Shown in pieces: positions 56,846 to 61,292 of a stretch of 64,000 nucleotides of DNA (the first letter of the stretch is position 1; every line of letters begins with the position of its first letter). Made by a program: the position numbers and the translations under genes. The DNA is from an uncultured Micrococcaceae bacterium (GTDB lineage Bacteria > Actinomycetota > Actinomycetes > Actinomycetales > Micrococcaceae): assembly GCA_947502645.1 (NCBI GenBank), contig CANNAD010000001.1:1178001-1242000 (forward strand). Reading direction: 5' to 3'. The notes under the pieces are model-generated. The model had not been told where the DNA came from, did not search any database, and saw only the letters and a program-made list of their open reading frames with translations.

Positions 56846-58282
56846 GGCTCTTCCCAATTAGGGGTGTAGCTGGGGTCTGAATCCTCCGGTTTCGAGGAGT
56901 GATCTGGCGATGTAGTGGGTGAGGTTGCGGAATCCTAGGGCGATGCCGCGTAGGTGTTCGAGCCGGCCGTTGATGGATTCGGTGGGGCCGTTGGATGTCC
57001 CGGGGTTATCGAAGAACGTGAGTATGTCGGTGGCCCGGCGGTTCAGCGTTCGTCCTAGGGTGCGGATCTCGTCGAGTCCGGCCGGGACACCGTGTTGGAG
57101 TTGGTTGATGAGTTTGGTCATCAGTTCCTTACCCGTGGCACGGTCGGGGTGACGGTAGGCGGTGATCATGTCCTGATACACGCCCCAGGTGACTTCAACG
57201 GCGACGTGCGCCTCGTTGGTGAACGCCTTTTCGAGTCGCACGCGTTGCTTGTCGGTGAGGAGATCTGCGCCTGTGTGAAGTGTCCTGCGGATACCGTAGA
57301 GCGGGTCCCCAGCGCGGCCCCGGTGCCCGAGGCTCTGTTGCTGCACTCGTTGCCGGCACCGGTCCAGGCCGTCTCCGGCCAGTTGGATGACGTGGAACGG
57401 ATCCATGACCTCGACCGCTTGGGGTAGTTCTTCGGCGGCGGCGGTCTTGAATCCGGTGAACCCGTCCATCGCAACTACCTGGATCGTGTCCCGCCAGGCC
57501 TTGGTGCGGGCTTGCAGCCACCTAGAGAAGACTCGTTTGGAGCGGCCCTCAACCATGTCCAACAACCGCGAAGGGCCAGTGCCGTCACGAACTGGGGTGA
57601 GGTCGATGATGACGGTAACGTACTTGTCCCCACGGCGGGTATGCCTCCAAACGTGTTCATCAACACCGATGACTTCGACACCATCGAAGCGGTGCGGGTT
57701 GTTGATCAACACACGGCGGCCCTCGGCCAGGACAGCAGTGTTGGCGGTGGGCCATGCAACGTTCAGTGCCTCAGCAATCCGGGAGATGGATAGGTGCTGA
57801 CAGACGACGCCTGCCAATGCCCACGTAAGTGCGGTGCGGGAGATCTTCGCCCGCGGCTCAACCGCCAAGCCGGTGTCTTGGCGCCACACATGGGAACAGT
57901 CAGCGCACCGGAATCGACGAACCTGGATGCGCAGTGTCACCGGTTTCCAGCCCATGGGTGCGTGCGCTACCCGACGCTCGATCGTGCCGCGCGGAACACC
58001 CTCGGTCCCGCAGCGGCGGCAGAACTCATCGGCTGCCACGACCCGGCAGGCTAGCTCCGTTCGTTTGGGCAGGAATCGTTGGCCGATCACCTTCAGACCG
58101 AGGCCATCAAGGCCGGTGAACGTGGTCAGGTCAGGGACAGAGAAGGTAGCGTTGAACATGAGGGCCTTGTGCTCGAGAACAGTGGAGTAGATACCTTGAT
58201 TCTCTCCCAAGGCCCTCTTCCACACCCCCGGCCACTGACCCCAGCCCTCAAACCACAGTTACACCCTCAATTGGGAAGAGCC
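56846..58282 (-). mobile_element. ISL3-family insertion sequence (1437 bp)
   Basis: Imperfect terminal inverted repeats bound the element. The left end reads GGCTCTTCCCAATTAGGGGT. The right end, in reverse complement, reads GGCTCTTCCCAATTGAGGGT, about 26 of 30 bases matching. The left flank ends CCTTGTTC and the right flank begins CCATAAGT, so there is no 8-bp target duplication. It encodes one intact transposase. It interrupts an S66 gene and abuts tRNA-Ser. Confidence 0.9.
56858..58159 (-). CDS. ISL3-family transposase
   Basis: This 433-residue DDE transposase has an N-terminal zinc ribbon (CRRCGTEG and FRCADCSHVW) and a helix-turn-helix. The catalytic core has Asp in VEVIGVDEHVWRH, Asp in VVAMDGFTGFK and Glu in SNGPTESINGRLEHLRG. 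The C-terminal region ends FRPQLHP in the left inverted repeat. ATG at 58159 (MFNATFSVPD) is chosen rather than the track's 58225, which lies in the terminal repeat region. It appears full length and potentially active. Confidence 0.92.
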   Translation of the reverse strand: MFNATFSVPDLTTFTGLDGLGLKVIGQRFLPKRTELACRVVAADEFCRRCGTEGVPRGTIERRVAHAPMGWKPVTLRIQVRRFRCADCSHVWRQDTGLAVEPRAKISRTALTWALAGVVCQHLSISRIAEALNVAWPTANTAVLAEGRRVLINNPHRFDGVEVIGVDEHVWRHTRRGDKYVTVIIDLTPVRDGTGPSRLLDMVEGRSKRVFSRWLQARTKAWRDTIQVVAMDGFTGFKTAAAEELPQAVEVMDPFHVIQLAGDGLDRCRQRVQQQSLGHRGRAGDPLYGIRRTLHTGADLLTDKQRVRLEKAFTNEAHVAVEVTWGVYQDMITAYRHPDRATGKELMTKLINQLQHGVPAGLDEIRTLGRTLNRRATDILTFFDNPGTSNGPTESINGRLEHLRGIALGFRNLTHYIARSLLETGGFRPQLHP

Positions 58283-59527: not shown

Positions 59528-60163
59528 ATGCGCGTACTGGTTGTTGATCATCCCCTTGTTGCCCACAAACTCACGGTCCTGCGGGACAAGGACACGTCGT
59601 CGCCCGTTTTCCGGCTGCTGACGGAGGAGTTGGTCACGCTTCTGGCGTACGAGGCCACCCGTAATGTGCGCGTGGAAAGCGTCCGCGTGAATACGCCAGT
59701 CACCGAAGCTGATGGCATTGGTCTGGTGAAGCCGACGCCGCTGGTCGTCCCGATACTCCGCGCGGGCCTTGGCATGTTGGAGGGCATGACACGGCTTGTG
59801 CCGACGGCGGAGGTCGGTTTCCTGGGGATGCAGCGCAACGAGGAGACGCTTGAGGCCATCACCTATGCCGAGCGGCTTCCGGATGACCTGACGGGCCGTC
59901 AGGTCTTTGTGCTGGACCCCATGCTTGCCACTGGCGGTACGCTGCGGGAAGCCATCAAGTTCCTTTTCCAGCGCGGGGCCGACGACGTCACGTGCATCTG
60001 CCTGCTCGCCGCCCCTGAAGGGCTCAAGGCGCTTGAAGAAGAGTTGGACGGACAAAACGTGACAATCGTTCTGGCGTCGATCGACGAGAAACTCAACGAG
60101 AACGCGTACATTGTGCCGGGTCTGGGCGACGCCGGCGACCGCCTCTACGGTGTCGTCCACTAG
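59528..60163 (+). CDS. upp: Uracil phosphoribosyltransferase
   Basis: This 211-residue enzyme makes UMP from uracil and PRPP for pyrimidine salvage. [41 protein letters not shown] opens the protein. [16 protein letters not shown] and the PRPP motif [18 protein letters not shown] follow. It ends [22 protein letters not shown], typical of Upp. It diverges from tadA across 23 bp. Confidence 0.95.
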
Positions 60164-60223
60164 GCGTTTCGCGGCAAAACCCCCGTCAGGACAGGGAAGA
60201 GCCGCGTTGTGACGCACATTACG

Positions 60224-60262
60224 TTGCGCATAGTTAACCGTTCCATGTAATAATTCTTGATG
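60224..60262 (+). promoter_or_regulatory. Promoter for a leaderless upstream ORF
   Basis: TTGCGC (60224-60229), 18 bp, then TAATAA (60248-60253) place the start point at about 60260-60262. That is on or next to the GTG of the Cys-rich upstream ORF, so the mRNA is probably leaderless. Confidence 0.6.
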
Positions 60263-60354
60263 TGAACACCAACTCGACAGCATCTGCAGCCGCAGCAACC
60301 CTGATCAGCCGTTTGGCTGGTTCGGCTATGTGCTGTTGTCGAATGCATGCCTAA
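60262..60354 (+). CDS. 30-residue Cys-rich leader peptide (CCC run)
   Basis: This frame is too short for the track. It starts GTG and encodes MNTNSTASAAAATLISRLAG followed by SAMCCCRMHA and a stop. Three consecutive Cys codons (TGC TGT TGT) sit near the end. Leaderless uORFs with Cys runs are known in mycobacteria, where cysteine shortage stalls ribosomes and relieves repression of downstream sulfur genes. Here the next gene, 126 bp downstream, is a winged-helix regulator. There is no ribosome binding site, in line with a leaderless start. Confidence 0.65.
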   Translation: MNTNSTASAAAATLISRLAGSAMCCCRMHA

Positions 60355-60479
60355 AAGCACCACCCTCAGCTAACAGGCAATTCTTTACGGGCCCAACGGC
60401 GGGCACACCCGCTTCATTGCGATCGGCCCACCCATAGCATTCGAGCCGCGATGACGGCCATTCACATTTGAGGTTTAAC

Positions 60480-61292
60480 ATGTCAGTTGCATCCGGATAC
60501 GTCCACATCTCCCTTCGCCCTCAGCGCCGCGACAACGCGTCGAATTTCCAGCGGCCACGCTCCGCAGAGGGACAATCTCCAAGTCAGGGATACCGGCAGC
60601 TGCACGCGGTTCCTCCGTACGCAGACACAGCCCATCCCGACACAGCGCCCACCCCGGTCATCTCACCCAACGGCGTTCCTGGCCCGCAGCCGGTCAGCAA
60701 TGACACAGCGGCCCGAGGGTTCGTGGTGTACGTCGGGCTTGATGAAGAGGCCGCAACCGCGAACGGCACGACGCTTACCAAGCTCGCGCAGGACATCCGC
60801 GCCTACGTTCAGGAACTGGTGCCGAACGCGCAGAGCCACGCCGCCGTCGCGCTCGCCCCTGCCGGTGCGCAGGGTACGGATATCGACGTCGTCCGGCAGG
60901 CTTTGGGGGATCCGACGGCGAATCGCCGGCCCCGCACGGAAACGCGCAGCCAGTCCCAGCCCCGTACTGCCACGGGCGTTCTGATTGATCTGGCGCGCAG
61001 GGAGGTGCAGCTGGACGGTGAGGTGCTGAACCTGACCTTCAAGGAGTTCGAGCTGCTGAACTACCTGGTGGAGAACGGCACCCGTACGGTGAGCCGCGAG
61101 GAGCTGCTGGAATCCCTCTGGAAGAACGCCGAGGAGATCCCCAACGTGCGGACCATCGATGTTCATATTCGGCGTCTGCGCTCGAAGCTCTCGCGGTTGG
61201 CCAACACAGTCCGCACAGTGCGTGGCCAGGGCTACCGCTTCTACGAGCACCCCGAGGTCATTGTCTGGGCAGCTCCTGAATACTCCATCTGA
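60480..61292 (+). CDS. OmpR/PhoB-type winged-helix regulator with atypical N-terminus
   Basis: This 270-residue protein ends in an OmpR/PhoB DNA-binding domain: LNLTFKEFELLNYLVENGTRTVSREELLESLWK and NVRTIDVHIRRLRSKLSRLANTVRTVRGQGYRF (about 180-258). The N-terminal half is not a normal receiver. It has a low-complexity start (about 1-80) and a short alpha/beta-looking region (GFVVYVGLDEEAATANGTTLTKL, then HAAVALAPAG). No DxxD phosphoacceptor pattern is clear. It is an orphan without a sensor kinase. The Cys-rich uORF upstream suggests a link to sulfur supply. Confidence 0.85.
   Translation: MSVASGYVHISLRPQRRDNASNFQRPRSAEGQSPSQGYRQLHAVPPYADTAHPDTAPTPVISPNGVPGPQPVSNDTAARGFVVYVGLDEEAATANGTTLTKLAQDIRAYVQELVPNAQSHAAVALAPAGAQGTDIDVVRQALGDPTANRRPRTETRSQSQPRTATGVLIDLARREVQLDGEVLNLTFKEFELLNYLVENGTRTVSREELLESLWKNAEEIPNVRTIDVHIRRLRSKLSRLANTVRTVRGQGYRFYEHPEVIVWAAPEYSI

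Follow-up and report, generated by a model that had tools for sequence, protein, structure and literature searches.

A conserved cysteine-run upstream ORF in a structured leader before an orphan winged-helix regulator of Micrococcales, a likely cysteine-sensing attenuator

Cysteine-rich leaderless upstream open reading frames (uORFs) have been described in mycobacteria at cysA2, nirA and Rv0485 (Shell et al. 2015, PMC4633059), and a further paper places the cysteine genes of M. smegmatis under translation attenuation (PMC13236596, citing Canestrari 2020). For the Cys leader peptides of the Mycobacterium cys, P. acnes cys and B. longum cbs loci, an involvement of Rho has been proposed, and neither a conserved terminator hairpin nor a structured leader was reported (PMC1262725). 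Rv0485 has been called a transcriptional regulator and its orthologues have high 5'UTR-to-CDS read ratios in two mycobacteria, while an actinobacterial uORF of the whiB7 type also controls a regulator (PMC4128351). Within the limits of the library searched, we found no earlier report in Micrococcales of the uORF described here, and in the literature searched no regulator of sulfur amino acids is named for this group.

The locus described here lies in a window of 64,000 nucleotides (the whole stretch of DNA that was analysed, to which all coordinates refer) from an uncultured Micrococcaceae bacterium. An earlier note on this DNA had reported a 30-residue GTG ORF with three consecutive Cys codons, and this ORF is present as described. 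Its translation is MNTNSTASAAAATLISRLAGSAMCCCRMHA, with the C-terminal sequence AMCCCRMHA directly before the stop codon, and it is separated by 125 nt from the winged-helix gene, which starts with ATG at 60480 and has an in-frame TTG alternative at 60468. The features of the locus are:

59528-60163: upp, upstream of the uORF
60220-60244, + strand: diverged copy of the family promoter repeats TTGTTACTTGC...TTGTTACG, a candidate regulator site (promoter alignment)
60246-60254, + strand: extended -10-like element TGTAATAAT (sequence; conserved spacing to the uORF start)
60262-60354, + strand: leaderless-type uORF, GTG start, 30 aa, ending CCCRMHA (sequence and relatives)
60331-60339, + strand: three Cys codons, TGC TGT TGT (sequence)
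60340-60345, + strand: CGA ATG (Arg-Met), directly after the Cys run (uORF comparison)
60470-60473, + strand: Shine-Dalgarno sequence GAGG of the regulator (sequence; GAGGT is conserved in the alignment)
60480-61292, + strand: orphan winged-helix regulator, 270 aa (Trans_reg_C; profile and fold searches)

Further upstream, a 455-aa ORF on the minus strand (56858-58225) has, judged by eye, the look of an ISL3-type transposase.

Like the mycobacterial polycysteine uORF attenuators, the window locus combines a short leaderless-type RTG ORF and Cys codons near its stop with a gene in cis downstream and the absence of an intrinsic terminator. It differs from them in its lineage (Micrococcales), in the near-universal orphan winged-helix regulator that lies downstream, in a shared CC-CGA-AUG core and, in a second family, in a Met-rich run. 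The Cys leader peptides of PMC1262725 likewise have runs of Cys codons near the stop and no terminator, but they precede biosynthetic operons. In whiB7-type control, as in the proposal made below, a uORF acts on a regulator and the regulator on a regulon; the signal there is translation inhibitors and not an amino acid. At Rv0485/Msmeg_0932 a Cys-rich leaderless uORF also precedes a regulator gene, a likeness of arrangement that does not imply homology; we take Rv0485 to be a ROK-family protein, not one of the OmpR type. Because a mycobacterial regulator thus has a Cys-rich leaderless uORF, the arrangement is not without precedent (PMC4633059).

Conservation of the uORF was followed in a first set of 111 loci, of which those with names are Micrococcaceae. 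Upstream of the orthologous gene, automated searching picked out a comparable uORF at 93 of the 111 loci (87 distinct leaders), most of these uORFs having a V/M-N start and a CC(C)RM[HQPS] end, and hand reading of the remaining loci added RWCRM, CHCRM, CCCRM and RCGCRM variants. Loci L035, L048, L061 and L028 have one Cys codon or separated Cys codons only, and several genera retain the promoter motif without the uORF or without its Cys run. The middle TGT/TGC of the run encodes Cys in all 37 representative Micrococcaceae uORFs, and the Arg codon after the run is CGA in the same 37 and in 25/25 second-family uORFs analysed. Taken by itself, the Cys run carries no significance, the window genome having 465 occurrences of TGYTGYTGY, and of the 16 matches to the CCRM pattern in that genome, read individually, the known uORF is the only comparable short uORF; it is the conservation, rather than the run, that goes beyond what chance would give, and on these sequence comparisons the Cys uORF before the orphan regulator is a real feature. 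None of three uORF peptides tried matched the named leader-peptide families of NCBIfam. Upstream of the six PALP-family genes of the window genome, which by sequence are likely to include cysteine-synthase types, no Cys-run uORF was found. At L012 the uORF frame found lacks the CCRM run, a CRRM end stands in another frame and the CGAATGC/GCATTCGA pairing is kept, possibly a frameshifted uORF; at L015 the promoter motif is still followed by a GTGAAC uORF start, but the ORF has no Cys codons.

A similar arrangement is found in a second Micrococcales family, which we guess to be Microbacteriaceae. Here, a uORF with a leaderless-type ATG ends in CCRM plus two residues at 28 of 30 loci, and its Met- and Cys-rich peptide reads MTxNAxxLTSxEAxGxAGMMMPxxxVMCCRMC[RA]; most of the uORFs in this family (L211-L240) have an MMM run ahead of their Cys codons. 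The Cys codons interchange between TGT and TGC with Cys retained, and the two runs together suggest a combined Met/Cys sensor. The exact 18-nt core ATGTGYTGYCGNATGTGY occurs once, never more, in 30 of 60 second-family genomes (reversed control, 0), and the sites listed fall near matches to the regulator. In a third family, Met/Cys-rich uORFs with GCCCCL or VCCCL ends precede three of the nine closer orthologues (those with long matches), and a scan found no such uORF at the other six. The window regulator shares 44-47% identity with the second-family proteins; the arrangement is therefore either old or re-invented. The comparison in relatives proposed in the earlier note thus found the uORF, the Cys run and the start-at-TSS geometry conserved in Micrococcaceae, in the second family and in part of the third, and because uORF and run are kept in cis with the regulator, want of conservation is not an objection to the reading. 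A Cys run with a CGA-AUG core is common to Micrococcaceae and the second family, and the common denominator of all these loci is an ORF that is predicted to start at the transcription start, has its Cys run just before the stop and lies in cis with one gene, a single site in each genome according to the search with the exact core.

The promoter geometry is also conserved. In the window about 7 nt separate the end of TGTAATAAT from the uORF GTG, and the distance from -10 to start codon is 6-7 nt in the inspected loci of Micrococcaceae and the second family (about 7 nt before the ATG in the latter, where most of 27 promoters also have a TTGACA-like -35); this spacing supports the predicted leaderless uORF. 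A generic sigma-70 scan scored no site at the window locus, since TGTAATAAT is not accompanied by a good -35. The exact form of the promoter repeats has no match in the window genome; in each of the eight genomes that have any it occurs once, always at the regulator locus and with no further site, which fits autoregulation. A palindrome-like element, GTCTCACAnnGTGRGAC, stands whole or in part 28-30 bp 5' of TTACTTGC in Micrococcaceae promoters (for example at L040 and L076), the spacing being exactly 30 bp in most loci with both; a loose form of the pattern occurs at 58 of 111 Micrococcaceae loci, and none was seen in the window.

The leader itself is predicted to be structured. The 218-nt window leader folds at -77.2 kcal/mol, compared with -63.1 +/- 4.4 in 200 shuffles (z -3.19), and better than all 200 of them. 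From the window fold and an RNAalifold consensus a six-helix model was built and scored on 45 aligned representative leaders. Its predicted strands are:

60262-60266, + strand: P0 5' strand GUGAA, pairs with UUCAC at 60461-60465
60275-60283, + strand: helix A 5' strand, codons 5-8, pairs with the Cys-codon strand at 60330-60338
60330-60338, + strand: helix A 3' strand, which holds Cys codons (helix model)
60339-60346, + strand: P1 5' strand UCGAAUGC, pairs with 60437-60444
60349-60352, + strand: P1b 5' strand GCCU, at the uORF stop, pairs with AGGC at 60375-60378
60375-60378, + strand: P1b 3' strand AGGC (helix model)
60391-60404, + strand: P2 hairpin GCCC-AACGGC-GGGC (helix 5)
60437-60444, + strand: P1 3' strand GCAUUCGA (partner count, helix model)
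60445-60458, + strand: P3 hairpin GCCG-CGAUGA-CGGC (helix 6)
60461-60465, + strand: P0 3' strand UUCAC, just 5' of the Shine-Dalgarno sequence (helix model, alignment)

In the model 87.4% of cells are paired against 31-42% when it is slid along the alignment, slid controls being expected to score worse because the model was derived from the same sequences. Double changes fall in 32 cells against 9.6 in shuffles that ignore the relatedness of the leaders, and 0 of 500 shuffles reach this number. The changes are spread unevenly over the helices. Helix A (helix 2) has six pairs with changes on both sides and P1b (helix 4) has three; P1 (helix 3, CGAAUGC with GCAUUCG) has a single double-change pair, so that it rests mainly on conservation, and P3 also has one, with a GCCA..UGGC version in the Paeniglutamicibacter group. 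P0 (helix 1; 84.9% paired, no compensatory changes) and P2 (95.1% paired, no double changes) rest on conservation. The P1 partner CATTCG occurs in 74 of 87 Micrococcaceae leaders where 6.9 would be expected, and its distance to the ATG is 41-50 nt in every case. The Cys codons thus appear to sit in a covarying helix and the CGAAUG helix appears nearly invariant. In the second family the P1 partner occurs in 5 of 27 leaders (1.8 expected) and folding gave no strong consensus, so that the Micrococcaceae fold is not what the two families share; CGA is invariant there too, although the partner is mostly absent. A hairpin at the uORF stop of second-family leaders, on average 1.0 kcal/mol more stable than shuffles and better in 21 of 27, was too slight an effect to claim.

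Several familiar modes of control were considered and found no support. No terminator-like site was found within 60100-60560, so a classical trp-type transcription attenuator, with an intrinsic terminator after the leader ORF, was rejected, as was a T-box or other Rfam riboswitch, the covariance models giving no match at E<=5. Simple occlusion of the Shine-Dalgarno sequence by structure paired with the uORF was examined by in silico masking, in which pairing was forbidden from the uORF start through CGAAUGC; over 51 leaders the mean unpaired probability of the Shine-Dalgarno sequence went from 0.32 to 0.28, with no consistent opening. As masking failed to open this site, either the stacked fold (P0, P3) would control translation or Rho would control transcription.

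Hence, we hypothesize that the uORF is a genuine cis-acting leader ORF that senses cysteine and attenuates expression of the orphan regulator, and we regard this reading as likely. Transcription would start at or beside the GTG and a ribosome would load at the 5' terminus. If Cys-tRNA is plentiful, it would read through Cys-Cys-Cys-Arg-Met-His-Ala and depart, which would leave the leader to adopt its compact fold, with helix A on the Cys codons, P1, P3 and P0 closing beside the Shine-Dalgarno sequence, and this fold would lower production of the regulator. If Cys-tRNA is scarce, translation would stall on the Cys codons, the ribosome would cover strands of helix A and P1, the fold would be blocked and the regulator would be made. 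What we infer is the stalling, the sign of its effect and whether control falls on translation initiation or on Rho-dependent termination; Cys-tRNA-dependent stalling is the natural reading because attenuation by leader ORFs is established, and induction by Cys shortage is the sign that we prefer, by analogy. The attenuator reading of the earlier note therefore stands in part: the uORF is conserved and its Cys codons lie in covarying RNA, but several genera of Micrococcaceae have lost the Cys run. The wider proposal, that ribosomes reading a Cys run (elsewhere Cys and Met) at the mRNA 5' end set the level of the regulator in at least two families of Micrococcales and in part of a third, is put forward tentatively; it may or may not hold across that range.

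Among the alternatives, Rho-dependent attenuation shares the sensor with the mechanism just outlined and differs in the regulated step: the C-rich leader would recruit Rho once the uORF has been terminated, and a ribosome stalled at the Cys codons, or RNA folding that such a ribosome allows, would block Rho so that polymerase reaches the regulator gene. The missing intrinsic terminator suits this scheme, as do the C-rich stretch (CACC/ACCCC) after the uORF stop in the Micrococcaceae alignment, the C-rich second-family leaders with no strong consensus fold, the proposal of Rho for the mycobacterial, P. acnes and B. longum leader peptides (PMC1262725) and the read ratios at the Rv0485 orthologues (PMC4128351). 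However, C-richness was judged by eye in both families, not by a rut-site score, and a covarying fold that ends beside the Shine-Dalgarno sequence suggests a role in translation initiation in Micrococcaceae, and on balance we consider Rho control rather unlikely. It could also be argued that the RNA fold alone is functional and that Cys codons occur simply because helix A requires GCUGUUG for its pairing. Compensatory changes do keep helix A where Cys codons are lost (RWCRM at L035/L048, CHCRM at L061), and CGA is invariant; yet Cys runs persist in families without the fold (VMCCRMC in the second, CCCL/CCCCL at three third-family loci), and the TGT/TGC swaps there leave Cys unchanged, which makes this explanation improbable.

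A Cys-rich micropeptide that acts in trans, for instance as a metal or thiol sensor binding the regulator, would account for the CCRMC-type C-terminal sequence and the LTSxEA segment conserved in the second family. In Micrococcaceae, however, the central part of the peptide varies and constraint on wobble positions equals that on the other codon positions, which points to constraint on RNA and codons; moreover, the ORF lies in cis immediately upstream of the regulator and Cys-poor variants occur, and we give this possibility little weight. That the ORF arose by chance, its conservation reflecting overall DNA similarity or that of the promoter, could draw on the many Cys-run triplets in the genome and on the genera with a promoter and no uORF, but ORF, Cys run and stop are kept where the flanking leader has diverged, across families with about 45-50% identity between their regulators. 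Cross-family conservation already contradicts such a reading, which we consider barely credible.

The regulator is itself widely conserved. It is single-copy in 37 of 37 genomes of the same family, that of the window included (cut-off 1e-40), was found in 59 of 60 second-family genomes and has matches in 21 of 21 third-family genomes at a looser cut-off of 1e-25, twelve of which cover the C-terminal half only; it thus appears single-copy and near-universal in the families searched. Trans_reg_C (residues 180-254, E 2.2e-22) is its only Pfam domain, no receiver domain being detected by Pfam. Profile and fold searches place this OmpR/PhoB-type winged helix nearest to GlnR and PhoB. Among solved structures the DNA-binding domain comes closest to GlnR of Saccharopolyspora erythraea and M. 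tuberculosis (PDB 8hml, 8hig and 8hih), with a profile E-value of 5e-22 and roughly 40% identity in the fold search, and this match is limited to the C-terminal domain, residues about 160-255. The conserved core spans residues 78-264 approximately, of which residues 78-150 have no Pfam match and are modelled with moderate confidence at best. In the predicted structure (mean pLDDT 70.6) most of residues 1-64 fall below 50, and the N-terminal half was too weak for use. PAPS reductase (PF01507) is present in 13 of 29 searched genomes and had no match in the window genome and 15 others. The regulator is therefore not tied to sulfate assimilation, and the context, in contrast to that of the mycobacterial nirA and cys loci, is not sulfate assimilation. 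The one searched congener of the window genome is without a PF01507 match.

The earlier note had supposed that a whole regulon is placed under cysteine supply, and the regulator may act on genes for sulfur amino acids. With its Cys/Met-run leader, this near-universal, single-copy orphan protein becomes a candidate sulfur amino acid regulator; attenuation would then act on a regulator instead of on single biosynthetic operons, and the leader offers an RNA with covariation support for studies of mechanism. If this is true, a whole sulfur amino acid response would lie one step below a translation sensor, including in organisms without detectable PAPS reductase, and the question of which Micrococcales genes answer to Cys supply becomes directly testable.
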